Assembly (NCBI RefSeq): GCF_001887355.1
Contig: NZ_MPIN01000006.1
Coordinates: 558,001-622,000, forward strand
Source: Cystobacter ferrugineus
GTDB lineage: Bacteria > Myxococcota > Myxococcia > Myxococcales > Myxococcaceae
Length of the DNA stretch: 64,000 nucleotides
Reading direction: 5' to 3'
Numbering within the stretch: position 1 is the stretch's first letter; every line of letters begins with the position of its first letter. The notes beneath the pieces are model-generated. The model saw nothing but the letters and a program-made list of their open reading frames with translations. It did not search any database and was not told the DNA's origin. The translations under genes and the position numbers were made by a program. Below are positions 53,748-61,510 of this stretch, one piece after another.

Positions 53748-53973
53748 ACAGCAGCCCACTCAACCACCAGGCCCGTGTTCGCTCCGTCAGGACGGAGCGT
53801 TCTCGCCAGCTACCACCGAAGACGAACTGGATTCCCACCGCCTCGAATCAATGAGATAGCAAAATGACTGGGGAGCCACGCCATTCTTGATCAACGACCG
53901 CGATTCCAGCTCACCGGCGCCCCCGCCCACCGCACTTTCTGGTGACGAGCACCCCCTTCGGTAGGATGAGCCC

Positions 53974-54363
53974 ATGCACATCGAACACGTCGCCATCTGG
54001 ACGCGGGACCTCGAACGGCTCCGCTCGTTCTACGAGACGTATTTCCAGGCCAGCGCGGGGCCTCGGTACGTCAACGAGCGCAAGCGCTTCTCCTCGTACT
54101 TCCTGAGCTTCGCCTCGGGAGCACGTCTGGAGCTCATGACGAAGCCCCTCCTGGTGGACGCGAGCGGCAACGCCGAGACGCCGCCCACCGGCTACGCGCA
54201 CCTGGCGCTCTCGGTGGGCTCGCGCGAAGAGGTGGACTCCATGGCCGAGCGCTTCCGCCGTGACGGGCTCCCCGTGGTGGATGGTCCCCGGCAGACGGGA
54301 GACGGCTACTACGAGTGCGTCGTGCTCGATCCCGACGGCAACCGCATCGAAATCACCGTGTGA
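53974..54363 (+). CDS. VOC-family (glyoxalase/bleomycin resistance) protein
   Basis: A 129-residue vicinal-oxygen-chelate protein with two beta-alpha-beta-beta-beta modules. Module one begins [28 protein letters not shown]. Module two begins [26 protein letters not shown] and ends [16 protein letters not shown]. Candidate metal ligands are His (HIEHVAI), Glu (LELM), His (AHLAL) and Glu (NRIEI), the usual set. The reaction is unknown; lyase, dioxygenase or binding-only members occur. Confidence 0.85.
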
Positions 54364-54718
54364 GCCACGTCGCGAGCGAGAGGTGAGCCAGTTCCGTTGC
54401 CCCGAGCATCTCCTGCTGGACCCTGGTTTTGGACTCGCGCAGAACGCATAGGGCAAATGGGAGGCCTGCAGTACCCTTTGGGCACACGCCTGCTCAGTCC
54501 CCCTCTCAGGGGCGCGGCAGAGGGCTTGGGCCTGAGGGCAACCGCGGCCTGGCGCTCAATGCCGTCATGTCTCCATTGCCGGCATTGCCGGTTTCCTGTC
54601 GAGACAATTGCTTGTCATCCGTCCTCAACCGGGAGGCGCTCGCCTCGGAATGGACGGGTTCTCGGTGAGGAATCGCAGTCGCCAAATTCGTTGGGCTTAT
54701 TGGGAAGGGAGAGCCGGC
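54364..54718. other. Non-coding interval
   Basis: 355 bases without a supported gene. A tandem 9-base near-repeat, ATTGCCGGC then ATTGCCGGT, occurs around 54574-54592. The start of the next gene has GGGAAGGGAGAG upstream. No promoter pair is convincing. Confidence 0.4.
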
Positions 54719-56122
54719 ATGTTCCTGAAGAAAAGGGTGCGCCGCAGTCCGGTGTTGCCTTGGAGCCTGGCCGCAGGCGTGGCGAATGCCGAGCCTGCCA
54801 TCAGTATCACTCCGGCGGGCGGCACGCTGATCGATGAACCGCTATCGATCGTGGTCCGCGGACTCGAATCCGGTGCGCAGGTCTCGGTGAAGGCGCGGCT
54901 GGTGGATGACCGCGGAATAGCATGGACGTCGGAAGCACTGGTTTATGCCGATAACGATGGCATCGTTGATCTCACCAGCGCCGCCTCGACCGGGGGAACC
55001 TATCAGGGTGTCGATGCGAGCGGACTGCTCTGGTCGATGATGCCGGTTACCCCGGACGAGCTCGACACCTATCGCAAGGAGATGCCGAAGCATCCCGAAC
55101 GCACTGCTGCGCCCACGTTCGATGAACCCGGAGAGAGCGAGCTGCGCATCTGGGCAGAACGCAACGGCCGCGAGCTTGCTACCACCCTTTACCACCAGCG
55201 CCGCATCGCTGCCGATGTCGAGGTTCGCGCCGTGCGGGATGGGCGCCTGCGCGGTGTCCTCTACAGACCGAAGGGCGGTAGCGGCAGCAGGCCCGCGTTG
55301 ATATGGATGATGGGCTCCGGCGGGAGCGTCGACAGCCGCTATGCGCCATTGCTCGCTTCTCGCGGCTACACCGTCCTCGCGCTCGGCTATTTCGGATATG
55401 CGGATCTACCCGCCGCATCGCACAATCTGCCGATCGAATATGTCGGTGAAGCGCTTGATTGGATGGCCCGTGAGACCGGGCGATCCAGAACGGTGGTGGT
55501 GGGAATGTCGCGCGGGACCGAGGCGGCGCTGCTGACCGGCAGCTTCTACCCGGACAAGGTGGCCGGCGTGGTTGCCTACGCTCCCAGCCACGTTGTCAAC
55601 AACGGCATCGACGACAAGGGCAACGTGGCCGTACCCAACTGGACCTGGCAAGGCAAACCGTTGCCGTTCGCGCAGGCGTCATTTCCGGACGCCGCGACCT
55701 GGCTGAAGATGGGGGCGGAAAAGCCGTATATGGGTACCCCCATCTATCTCAGTGCATGGAACAACCCCGGTGCAGACGAACGCTATGGGATTCCGGTCGA
55801 GCGGATCGCGGCTCCGATACTGCTCATCTCCGGCTCCGGCGACGATCTGTGGCCGTCTGCGATCGGTGGCGACCGGATCGTGGCACGGCTCAAGGCGAAG
55901 AACTTCCGCTATCCTTATCGCCACTATCGGGCACCAGGGGCAGGTCATCTGTTCACTCCGCCCAATTTCGTGTCGACCATGTCGGACTGGACTTTCCTTC
56001 GCGCGATCTTCGTCTCCACGGGTGGCACACCGGCGCTGAACGCCGCAGCATCGCGGCAGGCCTGGAGCGAGCTGCTTCGTTTCCTTGGTCAGGTCGACGG
56101 CGCAAAGCGGAAGAGCCGTTAG
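54719..56122 (+). CDS. BAAT-type acyl-CoA thioester hydrolase / alpha-beta hydrolase
   Basis: A 467-residue protein. Residues about 24-150 form the N-terminal Ig-like domain of acyl-CoA thioesterase/BAAT proteins (ISITPAGGTLIDEPLSIVVRGL). The C-terminal hydrolase domain has PALIWMMGSGGSVDSRYAPLLASRGYTVLALGYFG, the nucleophile VVVGMSRGTEAALLTG (Ser about 264), ISGSGDDLWPS and a His in GAGHLFTPPN. The signal-like N-terminus (VLPWSLAAGVANAEP) is short and looks truncated. Codon choice (more TAT, GCA, CGC/CGA and ATC/ATT mixture) and lower GC3 than flanking genes suggest transfer, perhaps from alphaproteobacteria. Confidence 0.75.
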   Translation: MFLKKRVRRSPVLPWSLAAGVANAEPAISITPAGGTLIDEPLSIVVRGLESGAQVSVKARLVDDRGIAWTSEALVYADNDGIVDLTSAASTGGTYQGVDASGLLWSMMPVTPDELDTYRKEMPKHPERTAAPTFDEPGESELRIWAERNGRELATTLYHQRRIAADVEVRAVRDGRLRGVLYRPKGGSGSRPALIWMMGSGGSVDSRYAPLLASRGYTVLALGYFGYADLPAASHNLPIEYVGEALDWMARETGRSRTVVVGMSRGTEAALLTGSFYPDKVAGVVAYAPSHVVNNGIDDKGNVAVPNWTWQGKPLPFAQASFPDAATWLKMGAEKPYMGTPIYLSAWNNPGADERYGIPVERIAAPILLISGSGDDLWPSAIGGDRIVARLKAKNFRYPYRHYRAPGAGHLFTPPNFVSTMSDWTFLRAIFVSTGGTPALNAAASRQAWSELLRFLGQVDGAKRKSR

Positions 56123-56317
56123 AATGTGCGACCCAATCATCGGGCGAATGGAAGGCCTGGAGAGAGGGTGAGGGCTGGAGCAGAGGGACCAAGGAGGGCT
56201 GCGGACGGGTGCCGCCGAGCTGTGCGCCACGCCGGTGGACAGGCCGTGCAGCCGCCGAAGCCCCAGTTGCACGACAATCTCCTCGCCACCATCCCCGCGG
56301 ACTTCTAGCCTGGAAGC

Positions 56318-56926
56318 ATGGAGCTCTTCGAAAAGTTGCTGCAGGAGTCCTCGCTTCACGACCACGCCGGCTCGGCCTCCAGTCGGGCCGCGCTCAAGGC
56401 GAAGCTGGCACCCTCCGGCACCGTGAAGCAGGTGGCCGAAGATCTGAAGGTTTCCGAGGGAGAGGACCTGCACTTCGACGGCGGCCTCGTGGTGAAGGGC
56501 AACCTCGTCATCGAGGACCAGGGGCGCCTGCTCGTGGCCGGCGACCTGGTAGTGGAGGGCAACATCATCCACGAGGGCTTCGACTACTCCCTGCTCTTCG
56601 TCGGAGGCTCGCTCGAGGCAGACAATCTCCTCTTCCATGGCGAGCTCGTCGTCCTCGGAGGCTTCACGCTCGAGGGCATCGCGTGGACCTACTACAGTGA
56701 CTACTCCACCTACGCCGACACGCTGTCCGCCAGACTCGTCGTGGCGGATGACCGCGAGGACGCTATCGGGACGGTGCGCGCGGACCACCACCTCGTCGGC
56801 CACTCCAGTAAAATCGGTCCCAAGCTGAGCAAGCTGCTCGAGAAGGGGCTCGTGGATGAAGAGGGCAAGTGGTCCTACTCCACGCTCGCGAACAAGCTGC
56901 TGAAGAAGGAAGCACTGCTGCCGTGA
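56318..56926 (+). CDS. Protein with beta-helix-like repeat, unknown function
   Basis: A 202-residue soluble protein. Residues about 42-115 form a ladder of short strands of the type (L/V)xVxGxLxxxG: LHFDGGLVVKGNLVIEDQGRLLVAGDLVVEGNIIHEG, then LLFVGGSLEADNLLFHGELVVLGG. This suggests a right-handed or left-handed beta-solenoid like bactofilin-type polymer proteins, but it is shorter and not clearly homologous. The C-terminal part is helical (SSKIGPKLSKLLEKGLVDEEG). No signal peptide. It stands alone between two accessory genes. Confidence 0.55.
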   Translation: MELFEKLLQESSLHDHAGSASSRAALKAKLAPSGTVKQVAEDLKVSEGEDLHFDGGLVVKGNLVIEDQGRLLVAGDLVVEGNIIHEGFDYSLLFVGGSLEADNLLFHGELVVLGGFTLEGIAWTYYSDYSTYADTLSARLVVADDREDAIGTVRADHHLVGHSSKIGPKLSKLLEKGLVDEEGKWSYSTLANKLLKKEALLP

Positions 56927-57163
56927 CGTGATGCCATGCACCACGCGGGCGGCGGCCGCTCCTGCACGCGGCCTCGCTCGTGCTACCAGTGGCGTCCAAG
57001 GCCAACTTCACCAGGTACGTCACCGCGCCTACTGTCCACGTAACCGGGCAAGCCCGCCGCCCAGGCGTGACCGTCACATCCGTTCCGCGTTCCCTCCATC
57101 AGGGTAGTCAGGTGCAAGGCTCCGGGGGGAGCCCTGCCCCTGGAGCACGGGAGAGGCTCGCAC

Positions 57164-58222
57164 ATGGCATTGAGGCGATACGGAGTCTTGAAGGGGATGG
57201 CCGTGGGACGCCGCCTTGGAACGGGTCCCAGCCCACATTACCAGGTGCACCTCGTCGACGAGCAGCGGGACTACCGCATCGCCATCAACGTCCGCTCACA
57301 GCTCTTCCCCTCCGAGCTGGAGTACTTCATCGACGAGAACTTCCAACACCCCCAGCTCGCGAGCCTGCGGGAGCTGCCCCTTGGCTTCACCCCGCTCGAC
57401 AGCGCTCCAGGCGGGCTGGCCCTCGACTACATCCGCGGCAACCTCTTCGAGCCCTGGCGGATGCGGCCCCTGCCGCACGATGTCCCCGGACCGGACAATG
57501 ACTTGAACGAGAAGATCGACCACTTCTGCCAGCGCGCCATGGCGGAGGAGGAGGCGTTCCTCTATGCCTTCGGAGAGCCGTGGGGTCCCGAGAACAAACG
57601 GGACAAGTACTTTGGCTTCAGCCCCGGCAATGGCATCCACGACATCCACATGAACCAGGGCAACCACTCCGACTTCGCCTCCCAGGATGGGACCTGGCAG
57701 GACGGTGGGCTGCTCTTTCACTTCCCAGCGCAGCAGCAGTGGGTGGCCGTCTTCCTCAAGTTCCAGTCGCAGGCGTGGCACACCGACGATCGGACGGGCC
57801 ATGCGCTCGCCGCGGCTCCCACCGGGCGCCCCGCCGAGCCGCCGATGGGGACTGGCACGGGCTCCGGGCCCGCCCCCGCTCCCGAGCCCACCGCCGAGCA
57901 GCCCGATGGGCTGGTGCGCATCGTCGCGGCCCTCGTCAACGACACCCGCTCGCCCGAGCGGGAAACCGTGACGATCCTCAACGCCTCCGCTCACCCCCTC
58001 TCCCTCGAGGGCTGGGCGCTCGCCGACGCGCACAAGCGCAAGCATCCGCTCGACGGGGAACTCGCCCCGGGTGACACCCGGGTGGTGCAGGTGCGCAAGC
58101 CGATGGAGCTGTCCAACCAGGGCGGCCTCATCACCCTGCTGAACGACCAGGGGTTGAAGGTGCACGGCGTCTCGTACTCGCGCGATCAGGCGCGCCGACC
58201 GGGTTGGACCCTCGTCTTCTGA
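57164..58222 (+). CDS. DUF2278 protein with C-terminal lamin-tail-like domain
   Basis: A 352-residue protein. Residues 1 to about 200 match DUF2278: YGVLKGMAVGRRLGTGPSPHYQVHLVDEQRDYRIAINV, LDYIRGNLFEPWRMRPLP, and GNGIHDIHMNQGN, with His residues (HDIHMNQGNH) placed like a metal site. A Pro/Ala/Gly linker (about 212-245) leads to a lamin-tail-like domain (VRIVAALVNDTRSPERETVTILNASAHPLSLEGWALAD), a beta-sandwich often seen in secreted nucleases. No signal peptide. The phospholipase D-like gene follows after 16 bases, so the two are an operon. Confidence 0.75.
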   Translation: MALRRYGVLKGMAVGRRLGTGPSPHYQVHLVDEQRDYRIAINVRSQLFPSELEYFIDENFQHPQLASLRELPLGFTPLDSAPGGLALDYIRGNLFEPWRMRPLPHDVPGPDNDLNEKIDHFCQRAMAEEEAFLYAFGEPWGPENKRDKYFGFSPGNGIHDIHMNQGNHSDFASQDGTWQDGGLLFHFPAQQQWVAVFLKFQSQAWHTDDRTGHALAAAPTGRPAEPPMGTGTGSGPAPAPEPTAEQPDGLVRIVAALVNDTRSPERETVTILNASAHPLSLEGWALADAHKRKHPLDGELAPGDTRVVQVRKPMELSNQGGLITLLNDQGLKVHGVSYSRDQARRPGWTLVF

Positions 58223-58238
58223 GTCCGGGGAGCACACC

Positions 58239-59933
58239 ATGCGAATCAAGCAACGAGCGGGTCCCCTCTCCGTCCACGCCACCGCGGGCACGCACGTGGT
58301 GCTGCTCGGCATCAACCTGCGGGAACAGAACCGCGCGGGGCTCCTGGGCTTCGCCATCGAGCGGACCGACCACACGGAAAACGAGCGCTACTGGCTGCGA
58401 GGCTTCCGGACCTTCGCGGACACGGAGCCCCACCTGACAGCGGGGACCTCCGTCTCCCTGCGCGAGCACCCGCTGCAAGGTTTCCTGTGGAGCGACTTCA
58501 CGGCCAAACCGGACCACCGCTACACGTACCGGATCGTCGCCCTGCGTGGCCATCCCAAGCGCCTGGAGGAGAGCCAGGAGGTCGAGGTCCAGGTGACCAC
58601 GGAGGCCGAGCACGACGGCACGCACTCGGTGCACTTCAACCGCGGCATCGCGGGCTCCCAGGCGTACGCGGTGCGCTTCGGCAACCGGCATCCAGACGAC
58701 GTCCCGGACGGCCAGGCCTACACCTGGCTCTCCCGGGGGCTCAGCGAGGCGTTGTCGCACTTCATCGCCCAGGCGAAGGACTCGAGCTGGGGCCTCCGGG
58801 CCTCCGTCTACGAGTTCACCGCCGCCCCCATCCTCCAGGCCTTCGCGCGCGCCAATGCGCAAGGCGCCGACGTCCGCATCGTCTTCGACGCCAAGCGCAA
58901 CCAGCCGCCCGGAGCGGACGGCGAACCGCATGGGAATCCGCGCGATCGCAACCTGGCCGCCATCGCGGCGGCGGAGCTGCAGGCGCTCGCCATCCCGAGG
59001 GAGCGCAACACCCACTCCATCTCCCACAACAAGTTCATCGTCCTGCTCCACCACGGCGAACCGGTGGCCGTCCTCACCGGCTCCACCAATCTCACCCCAG
59101 GGGGCCTCTACGGCCATTCCAACGTGGCGCACGTGGTGCGCGACCCGGCCGTGGCCACCGCCTTCCTGCGCTACTGGGAGCAGCTCGCGGGCGACCCCGA
59201 GGCACGCTCGCTGCGCCAGTGGACGGGGCAGGCCACGCCCGTGCCGCGAGTCCCGCCTCCACGCGGCTGCACGCCCTTGTTCAGCCCGCGCGCGTCGCTG
59301 GAAGCCCTCAAGTGGTACCGGGATCGGATTCGCGAGGCCCGGAGCGGCGTCTTCCTCACCGCGGCCTTTGGCGTCAACGATCTCCTGGAGGAAGTGCTCG
59401 CCGAGGACGTGGACTTCCCGCGCTACGTCCTTCTGGACCGGGAGGACGACAACATGGAGTTGCTCCGGCGCGACCGGGACAACCGCATCGCCGTGGGTTC
59501 CGTCCTCGGGGGTGACGTGCTGGAGCGGTGGGTGCGCGAGCGCACGGTGCCGGGACTCAATGGACACGTGAAGTACGTCCATACCAAGTACCTGCTCATC
59601 GACCCGCTCGACCGGGTCCCCCTGGTCATCACCGGCTCGGCGAACTTCAGCGATGCCTCGACGCGCGACAATGACGAGAACATGCTCGTCATCCGCGGCG
59701 ACACCCGCGTGGCCGACATCTACCTCGGCGAGTTCATGCGGCTCTTCAATCACTTCTACTTCCGCACCGCCGTGGCGAACCGGCCCTCTCCCCAGCGGCA
59801 CCTCTCGCCCGATGATTCCTGGAGCCGGACGTATTACGCCCCCGGCTCGTTCAAGAGCCGGGAGCGATTGCTCTTCGCGGGAGAAACCCGGAGCACGCGC
59901 GGCGCTGCCCGAAACCCAGCTCCAGGAGTATGA
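58239..59933 (+). CDS. Phospholipase D-like protein with two HKD motifs
   Basis: A 564-residue protein. The first 120 residues are beta-rich (GPLSVHATAGTHVVLLGINLR), perhaps a substrate-binding domain. The PLD domains carry HKD motifs SHNKFIVLLHHGEPVAVLTGSTNLT (His about 263) and VHTKYLLIDPLDRVPLVITGSANFSDAS (His about 448). In both the trailing G-S-x-N is intact, so catalysis is likely. Substrates in the family range from phospholipids to DNA. GSTN-type HKD proteins without signal peptides are often nucleases. It follows the DUF2278 gene in the same operon and has GGGGAG upstream. Confidence 0.82.
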   Translation: MRIKQRAGPLSVHATAGTHVVLLGINLREQNRAGLLGFAIERTDHTENERYWLRGFRTFADTEPHLTAGTSVSLREHPLQGFLWSDFTAKPDHRYTYRIVALRGHPKRLEESQEVEVQVTTEAEHDGTHSVHFNRGIAGSQAYAVRFGNRHPDDVPDGQAYTWLSRGLSEALSHFIAQAKDSSWGLRASVYEFTAAPILQAFARANAQGADVRIVFDAKRNQPPGADGEPHGNPRDRNLAAIAAAELQALAIPRERNTHSISHNKFIVLLHHGEPVAVLTGSTNLTPGGLYGHSNVAHVVRDPAVATAFLRYWEQLAGDPEARSLRQWTGQATPVPRVPPPRGCTPLFSPRASLEALKWYRDRIREARSGVFLTAAFGVNDLLEEVLAEDVDFPRYVLLDREDDNMELLRRDRDNRIAVGSVLGGDVLERWVRERTVPGLNGHVKYVHTKYLLIDPLDRVPLVITGSANFSDASTRDNDENMLVIRGDTRVADIYLGEFMRLFNHFYFRTAVANRPSPQRHLSPDDSWSRTYYAPGSFKSRERLLFAGETRSTRGAARNPAPGV

Positions 59934-60100
59934 GGCCAAGGCAGTCAGACACACCCTGGTCGTAATGTTATACGAGCAACGCCAGCCTTCTCTCACCCGA
60001 TGAGAGGAACCAAGCGAACAGGCACCCACTCCGTCCTCACCGTTCCCGTGGCGATGATGTTATTGACGCTCCGGTAACAGCCATCTCCCGGACGGTGTAC

Positions 60101-61510
60101 ATGAAGAACAAACTCATCGGTTCATTGGTTCTGGCGTGCAGTTGGCTCGGTCCCATCGCCTGCGCTGGCGACACGCCCGCGCCCGCCGCCCAGGGCGGCG
60201 ACGCTCCATCGTCACCGGCGGCCCCGGCGCCAGGCAGCCCCGCCGTCGACGCCGCCGCCAGTTGCTCCATCACCCAGGAGCGCGTGCGAATCACCGAAAT
60301 CGATGTCGGTGCGACGGTCGTGAGCAACGAGGACGAGGTGGCGCTCAAGCCGCTCGTCATCTCCCCCATTCCGGCCGGCGGTTCGCGGCTGGCCTGGATG
60401 GGCAATGACGGCAAGGTGCACATCACCCAGCTCGATGCGAGCGATCGCCCGGTGGGAACGTCCTTCGGCCTGCCGGCGAATGACTTCGCCGACCTGTACG
60501 CCGACAACACCGGTGGCACGCTGTTGTTGACACGGAATGCGAAGGGCGGAGGCACGCTCAACTGCGGCGCACCGACCAACCTCTGTGGCACTCCGCCCAA
60601 CCCGCCCGTGCCCTGCTACGACATGTACATGGTGCGCTTCGACGGCACCACCGAGACGTGGGCCACCGTGCTGACGAGCTCCAGCGAGACCCTGCCGCCC
60701 TACTCCACCGGACCCAAGGGCCCCACCGTCTACATGATCTGGTGGTACGCCCACCACGGGCGCATCGCGTTCGACGGCACGCGCTACGCGGGTTACTTCG
60801 GCGCGGCGATCAGCGTCTCGCAGAATGGCTGCATCAACATCCACCAGGGCGACCGGATGAAGGTCGTCGGCACCGACGGCAAGCTCCAGTCCGGCGGCTT
60901 CGATTGGGGTTGCAGCCACAGCGGTTATGAGCGGCTCATCTGGGATCCCACGGCCCGAAAGTTCGTCTCCATCTGCAAGACCGACAACAACAACCGGATC
61001 GCCTTCGCCCCCACCTACAAGACCATCCAGCCCGTCGACCTCGCCTACTCGAACCTGGGCAACCTGGTGACGGCCACGGGCGGGGGTTACTGGCTCACCA
61101 CGAGCAACATCCGGTCCGGACAGACGCCCAACGCCAACGGGCTCGCGGACGTGCACCTCCTCCACTTCGTGGACGGCGCCCCCGACAAGGACATCATCCT
61201 GGCGAGCGATGCGGGGCTCAACAACCGCGCCCCCCACCTGGCCGCCTATGGCCAGAACCAGCTCCTGGCGGCCTGGGAGACCTCGACGCGGACGGGAGAT
61301 CTGGTCCGGAACGACACCAGCCGCAAGCTCTACGTCCAGGCGCTGGATCGCGCGACCGGCGCCGCGAACGGCTCGGCGCTGCAGGTCGATGTGAAGGGCA
61401 ACCGCTATCAGGACTTCGTGGCCTTCCCGGATGGCAGCGTGGCCTTCGCCGCACCGGGCAGCAGCGCGACCAAGATCAAGATCCTCCGCGTCCTGCCCTG
61501 CGCGGGGTGA
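60101..61510 (+). CDS. Secreted lipoprotein, possible beta-propeller
   Basis: A 469-residue predicted lipoprotein (signal LIGSLVLACSWLGPIACAG, Cys near 21). A Pro/Ala/Ser linker is followed by repeats of about 50 residues with strand pairs such as SRLAWMGNDGKVHITQLDAS, GRIAFDGTRYAGYFGAAISV and HLAAYGQNQLLAAWETSTR. That is the kind of pattern seen in beta-propeller surface proteins. Paired Cys in the middle (NCGAPTNLCGTPP, DWGCSHSG) suggest disulfides. No enzyme motif is seen. The ATG at 60101 follows a weak GGACGG ribosome site. Confidence 0.55.
   Translation: MKNKLIGSLVLACSWLGPIACAGDTPAPAAQGGDAPSSPAAPAPGSPAVDAAASCSITQERVRITEIDVGATVVSNEDEVALKPLVISPIPAGGSRLAWMGNDGKVHITQLDASDRPVGTSFGLPANDFADLYADNTGGTLLLTRNAKGGGTLNCGAPTNLCGTPPNPPVPCYDMYMVRFDGTTETWATVLTSSSETLPPYSTGPKGPTVYMIWWYAHHGRIAFDGTRYAGYFGAAISVSQNGCINIHQGDRMKVVGTDGKLQSGGFDWGCSHSGYERLIWDPTARKFVSICKTDNNNRIAFAPTYKTIQPVDLAYSNLGNLVTATGGGYWLTTSNIRSGQTPNANGLADVHLLHFVDGAPDKDIILASDAGLNNRAPHLAAYGQNQLLAAWETSTRTGDLVRNDTSRKLYVQALDRATGAANGSALQVDVKGNRYQDFVAFPDGSVAFAAPGSSATKIKILRVLPCAG

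Follow-up and report, generated by a model that had tools for sequence, protein, structure and literature searches.

A stretch of 64 kb of the Cystobacter ferrugineus genome (558001-622000 of contig C6, in a 12-Mb genome assembled in 42 contigs), hereafter the window, carries two adjacent genes on the + strand. The first (57164..58222) is an open reading frame (ORF) of 352 aa encoding a protein of the DUF2278 family (PF10042), and the second (58239..59933) is an ORF of 564 aa encoding a member of the phospholipase D (PLD) superfamily. As stated in a preliminary description of the locus, stop and start codons are 16 bases apart (58223..58238, + strand), and a purine-rich stretch lies just 5' of the second ATG. 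Codon-position GC is typical of genes in this DNA (third position, 0.88 for DUF2278 and 0.89 for PLD; second position, 0.45 and 0.48), and both ORFs are therefore considered real genes. A conserved leader precedes them (57056..57163, + strand); its homology starts at 57056 in one sister genome (G073) and at 57066 in another (G074), it lies next to a variable stretch and is the probable promoter region. Searches for sigma-70 promoters and terminators around the pair found none, a result that is uninformative in a GC-rich myxobacterium. When examined across bacteria, the pair proves to be real, recurrent and optional, and most DUF2278 genes and many PLD genes are solitary.

The assignment of the first protein to DUF2278 was upheld (E 3e-78, 262.8 bits against a cut-off of 25, model positions 1-206 of 206). 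The core of the family occupies residues 1-212 and contains the His-rich segment HDIHMNQGNH that had caught attention earlier, the centre of which is the family signature (H159xxH162-MNQ); D180-G and Q203 are also invariant. In 17 of 17 diverse DUF2278 members, tail-less ones included, 16 residues do not vary, and N42, D88, R91, H159, H162, M163, N164, Q165, D180 and Q203 are among them. By its conservation, this set looks like a reactive site. A sequence search among solved structures gave no clear match for the core, and a Foldseek/VIA search with the model of the whole protein returned the lamin tail only; since the core was not searched separately, the missing match is no proof of a new fold.

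The C-terminal part (residues ~247-340) adopts a lamin-tail fold in the predicted model, which was built from 48 sequences and has a mean predicted local distance difference test (pLDDT) score of 80.8. Superposition on lamin tails gives Z ~10 over 87-93 residues, and the best match is 1ifr (Z 10.1, 87 residues, 2.1 Å). The sequence itself scores 26.7 bits against the lamin tail domain PF00932, under the Pfam cut-off of 34.3; the lamin tail announced for this protein is thus recovered as a predicted fold and missed by the Pfam threshold. Its proposed connection with nucleases finds a lead in ExeM and other lamin-tail extracellular nucleases, which like gene 1 carry a lamin tail on a hydrolase-like protein, according to passages of PMC6085458; the connection is loosened by two paired DUF2278 proteins that have no tail. 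ExeM is an exported protein with nuclease parts of the EEP and OB-fold types; gene 1 has neither a signal peptide nor a known nuclease domain. Removal of the ExeM lamin tail slowed nuclease activity and did not abolish it, in the same passages (PMC6085458), and by analogy the lamin tail may help binding.

The second protein matches PLDc_2 (PF13091) with an E value of 1e-21. Among its sequence relatives in the PDB, the Nuc endonuclease comes first, and MitoPLD/Zucchini and NucT are also found. The preliminary description had both HKD motifs complete. This is true of motif 2 (H448-T-K450-YLLI-D455), whose Asp is present in 32 of 33 aligned proteins; motif 1 (H263-N-K265-FIVL-L270) lacks the Asp, and Leu, Ile, Ser, Cys or another residue occupies the position, with Asp in 0/33. 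Both HxK and both GSxN-type sites (GSTN 281-284 and GSAN 466-469 in the window protein) are intact in all 33, a count that covers the proteins with residues aligned there and leaves near-duplicates in. What the protein has, then, is the PLD fold and two half-sites with GSxN, and not the full HxK(x)4D in both motifs.

Residues 126-516 of the PLD model superpose on the PLD3/PLD4 nucleases (Z 27-28, 320 residues aligned, 12-16% identity). The top fold match is 7e0m, titled phospholipase D (Z 29.2, 324 residues, 3.6 Å); the Nuc endonuclease 1byr scores Z 20.5 with 27% identity over 145 residues, phosphatidylserine (PS) synthase scores Z 25.6, and PS synthase, PPK1 and lipid PLDs together span Z 18-26. 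Residues ~10-120 form an all-beta domain in the model, for which no Pfam match was found, known lipid-binding domains included. No export signal was detected in the PLD-like proteins by simple hydropathy: the N-terminal maximum is 1.56 in the window protein, compared with 1.68-2.11 in four exported-looking window proteins picked by judgement, and the conserved PLD domain starts at or near a Met in nearly all relatives. The absence of a signal peptide, previously claimed for this protein, is therefore maintained, and the DUF2278 protein (0.47) behaves likewise.

The occurrence of the pair was surveyed in the 80 best DUF2278 loci among 84,980 species genomes. A PLD gene adjoins DUF2278 on the same strand in 9 of these loci, found in Nitrotoga (L039, L041, L042), Chromatiaceae (L052), Lamprocystis (L053), Nitrospira (L067, L073), Roseomonas (L061) and Methylobacterium (L087). 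The gap is shorter than ~65 bases in seven of the nine, and the two Nitrospira pairs are 0.7 and 2.1 kb apart. Gene order varies, PLD being first in Roseomonas and Methylobacterium. Searches of whole genomes detected the PLD in 11 of the 80 (11/50 plus 0/30), always as a single copy, and in 9 of these 11, from five lineages and two phyla, the sole copy is the one that adjoins DUF2278. Pseudomonas sp. SDI and Bradyrhizobium DOA9, whose PLD is a distant member, make up the remainder. Because the PLD-bearing genomes range from 2.8 to 7.9 Mb and have one PLD each, adjacency in 9/11 genomes of five lineages goes beyond chance, which we estimate at ~1 in 1000 per genome. Conservation of the neighbourhood had been named as the check for the two-gene system, and it was found, with further cases on plasmids and within the genus. 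As side observations, the PLD of Lamprocystis purpurea (L053 7069-7626) is truncated after ~142 aligned residues next to an intact DUF2278, and the 80 best loci for DUF2278 with a lamin tail (L030-L109) lean to nitrifiers, anammox bacteria, methanotrophs and cyanobacteria, perhaps a bias of similarity ranking.

On plasmids, nine PLD regions were inspected (from 65 matching records), and DUF2278 lies within 8 kb in four of them (Comamonadaceae, M. indicum, Undibacterium and M. aquaticum). In the converse inspection, seven DUF2278 regions (from 35 matching records) gave one with PLD two genes away, in R. etli. The order around Methylobacterium has a PLD match in 14 of 297 genomes. In the order of the window, DUF2278 is present in 13/145 genomes and a strong PLD (E at or below 1e-60) in 7, and the two adjoin in two genomes, that of the window and the sister genome G073. 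The genome of the window contains a single DUF2278 and a single PLD relative at E <= 0.001. Outside the genus, the nearest named kin of its DUF2278 are Myxococcus and Pyxidicoccus; the genome is therefore myxobacterial.

Phylogenetic trees indicate that the partnership has been formed or dissolved several times. In the DUF2278 tree (95 rows), 8 changes of the paired label are required, 7 of them forced by starred branches, compared with 15.0 in shuffles. In the PLD tree (35 rows), one starred clade has 11 rows, 10 of them paired; this sample is biased, as most rows came via DUF2278. The PLDs of Roseomonas and M. indicum group as sisters there, and their partners are a lamin-tail DUF2278 in the former and a tail-less, very divergent DUF2278 in the latter. 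For this reason the DUF2278 core, and not the tail, is the constant partner.

A natural deletion was found within the genus. The alignment of G074 with the window covers 57066-57118 and resumes at 58116, with nothing between: 997 bases are absent (57119..58115, + strand), from the start codon through most of DUF2278, and the leader and the last 107 bases of the gene remain. Given this remnant, loss of DUF2278 is the simplest reading. The G074 PLD is an open frame, 91% identical to that of the window. Ratios of nonsynonymous to synonymous substitution (dN/dS) between the window and G073 are 0.26 for DUF2278 and 0.29 for PLD; the G074 PLD gives 0.26 with the window and 0.36 with G073, and all PLD comparisons fall within 0.25-0.36. 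By these ratios, both genes are under purifying selection. As the G074 PLD has stayed intact and constrained after the loss, this protein is worth keeping without DUF2278. The proposal of a two-gene system is accordingly sound as regards a recurrent unit (9/11) and too strong as regards dependence, since each gene is common alone and G074 keeps PLD only. An obligate toxin-antitoxin pair is excluded: G074 keeps a constrained PLD (dN/dS 0.26) without DUF2278, other loci too have the PLD without it, and, in the converse direction, 69 of the 80 DUF2278 genomes are without the PLD. A second PLD of the same family, 50% identical and with one internal stop in the genome search, was observed in G073 (C65:147411-149048; L116).

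The surroundings of the pair are variable. At window ~53900-57056, L111 2261-7690 and L110 1964-9824, three congeners carry different DNA with similar borders; in each of the two comparisons, the right border is no more than 10 bases away from 57056-57066. On the 3' side, a lipoprotein gene and a DUF6010 gene are rare in the family (5/96 and 7/96 genomes). Because the upstream stretch varies among congeners and the downstream genes are rare, the pair is placed in an accessory region. The variable spot 5' of the pair includes a BAAT/acyl-CoA thioester hydrolase-like protein with both BAAT Pfam domains (54707-56122). The lipoprotein-like gene (60098-61510), absent from 91 of 96 family genomes, is 92% identical in G048 and 94% identical in G045 (partly covered, one stop), which belong to another genus of the family; such identity suggests recent transfer.

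Neighbours were scanned at 12 pair loci (73 neighbours, selected ones by Pfam); there was no control set, and the scan yields no statistical result, be it on phosphate genes or on the lack of defence genes. Neighbour clustering gave no other specific family shared as widely as PLD. In Roseomonas L061, PhoX lies directly 5' of PLD-DUF2278, and in M. indicum L127 the order is metallophosphoesterase, PLD, a PGM-annotated gene and DUF2278. CYTH-CHAD is found near the pair on two plasmids (L125 and L172), and the 73 neighbours include three CYTH and two CHAD members. An amidase is located 3' of PLD in Nitrospira. In a Chromatiaceae metagenome-assembled genome (L052 792-5531), a 1,580-aa nSTAND1 NTPase carrying HEAT repeats ends ~470 bases 5' of DUF2278. 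A fusion of Dyp-type peroxidase with a pyruvate formate lyase-like protein (1,342 aa) lies near DUF2278 in Pseudomonas and Asticcacaulis, and in Hymenobacter the two parts are separate genes adjoining PLD (for all three, L033 8123-12148; L134 10119-14096; L126 4079-7505). As a common third partner this protein was discarded, as among plasmids a nearly full-length copy turned up in a single record.

In comparison with known proteins, gene 2 resembles the PLD3/PLD4 5' exonucleases and Nuc/NucT/MitoPLD in fold, both HxK half-sites and GSxN. Unlike PLD3, PLD4 and Nuc, it has an extra N-terminal beta domain, a DUF2278 neighbour and no export signal, and the first-motif Asp is replaced by Leu, Ile or another residue. 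Gene 1 keeps all the invariant core residues of the DUF2278/YukJ family; it differs from the Priestia YukJ-type member in having a lamin tail and adjoining PLD. Open-access literature, the scope of our search (subscription journals lay outside it), contained no mention of DUF2278, PF10042 or COG5634, and the combination of lamin tail and phospholipase D gave an unrelated match only. YukJ, in open-access papers, is mostly an unrelated mention, in one paper a protein of unknown function, and in another an entry in Bacillus pellicle and cell-free-liquid lists. The pair is thus undescribed in this literature, as had been supposed, and the chemistry known is that of PLD, with none for DUF2278.

Phosphodiester transfer via a half-site histidine is established in the PLD superfamily. 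With about even confidence, we interpret the pair as two intracellular enzymes whose partnership recurs without being obligatory; the PLD would be a phosphodiesterase, probably on nucleic acids, and DUF2278 an accessory. The phosphatases or nucleases among some of the neighbours (PhoX, metallophosphoesterase, CYTH-CHAD) also fit this interpretation. Nucleic acid is the likeliest substrate because the nearest relatives in sequence and fold are nucleases (PLD3/PLD4, Nuc), with lipid PLDs also close in fold. The reaction would pass through a phospho-histidine formed at the histidine of one half-site, and the two lysines, together with the Ser/Asn residues, would hold the phosphate. DUF2278 may work on the same substrate or on the product through its conserved His/Asn/Gln/Asp cluster, either as an accessory enzyme or by handling the substrate, and the lamin tail, which some paired forms lack, might be an auxiliary binding module. 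The likely physiology would be phosphodiester turnover or salvage, and not phage defence.

Several observations weigh against this interpretation. The PLD model has a mean pLDDT of 65.6 and comes from 9 sequences. The fold leaves the substrate unsettled, as the top match is titled phospholipase D and PS synthase, PPK1 and lipid PLDs score within Z 18-26, and motif 1 without Asp departs from a classic HKD. An enzymatic nature of DUF2278 is deduced from conservation. Most DUF2278 genomes (69/80) do without this PLD, the profile for counting PLDs was built from paired ones, and in 5 of 6 strong-PLD genomes of the Methylobacterium order no DUF2278 was found within ~5 kb. Agreement between the distances of the two genes is moderate (Mantel r 0.47, with 199 of 5040 permutations as high), and strict co-divergence is not claimed. 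Lastly, there are few neighbours related to phosphate, and chance could explain them.

Those same neighbours raise the alternative that the pair is a phosphorus-scavenging or polyphosphate module that frees phosphate from phosphodiesters or handles polyphosphate. PhoX in Roseomonas, the metallophosphoesterase in M. indicum, CYTH-CHAD on two plasmids and the CYTH and CHAD members of the scan all fit this explanation, which we nevertheless regard as unlikely: phosphate genes are missing at most pair loci, window included, the neighbour counts stand without a control set, and the pair has no export signal, unlike PhoX-type enzymes, which are exported. Action of gene 2 on lipids, as a phospholipase D or transphosphatidylase, and modulation of membrane lipids by DUF2278 would agree with the title of 7e0m, with the score of PS synthase (Z 25.6) and with the presence of two half-sites per chain, a layout of lipid PLDs that PLD3/4 share. 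The closest PDB sequence relatives are, however, Nuc, NucT and MitoPLD, no export signal is found, and the N-terminal domain matches no Pfam lipid-binding domain, so that we consider a lipid substrate quite improbable.

A role in anti-phage or inter-bacterial conflict, with PLD as nuclease effector and DUF2278 as sensor, regulator or immunity protein, is given a low probability. The patchy distribution of the genes, their presence on plasmids, their repeated gain and loss, and the nSTAND1-HEAT gene of Chromatiaceae would suit such a system, and PADLOC detects weak resemblance of the pair to DrmC, ZacB and PbeA. Like DrmC of DISARM, gene 2 has a PLD-like nuclease domain with a weak profile match; it scores 29.6 bits against the NCBIfam equivalog model, whose cut-off is 133, and identity with DrmC was rejected. 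Among the 73 neighbours, one DrmD-like protein is the sole Drm-type match. PADLOC matches to these neighbours came from 12 families, scattered and unrelated, each but one of them seen in just one neighbour, and the strongest matches were generic TPR and HEAT proteins. No relative turned up when 50,697 phage records were searched by tblastn with both proteins, or when viral contigs were scanned; the DUF2278 model had three matches with E < 0.001 to viral protein structures (best 4e-4, ~120-150 alignment columns each). In addition, DUF2278 is no obligate antitoxin, as G074 keeps PLD without it. The defensive role suggested in the preliminary description is therefore unsupported; as regards the predatory use that it also raised, neither protein shows an export signal. 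Least probable of all, with a very slight chance of being correct, is that two accessory genes travel together without any functional link. The solitary state of most copies of either gene and the accessory, variable locus in the window are in line with it, while adjacency of a single-copy PLD in 9/11 genomes of several megabases from five lineages, and the presence of both gene orders and different DUF2278 subfamilies among pairs, argue against it.

The partnership of a phosphodiesterase with an accessory DUF2278 admits a bolder version, which we judge rather unlikely: DUF2278 could be an enzyme family of new fold and new chemistry, centred on its conserved His/Asn/Gln/Asp site and recruited repeatedly from different subfamilies as second step or handler for one clade of two-half-site PLD phosphodiesterases, in a widespread two-enzyme pathway that processes nucleic acids or other phosphodiesters. 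Members of the DUF2278/YukJ family range from Bacillus through Nitrospira and cyanobacteria to myxobacteria; in the open-access literature, no function was found for the family. A recurrent genomic partner with recognisable chemistry provides a concrete handle on this family, and G074, in which DUF2278 was lost and PLD was kept, amounts to a natural knockout.

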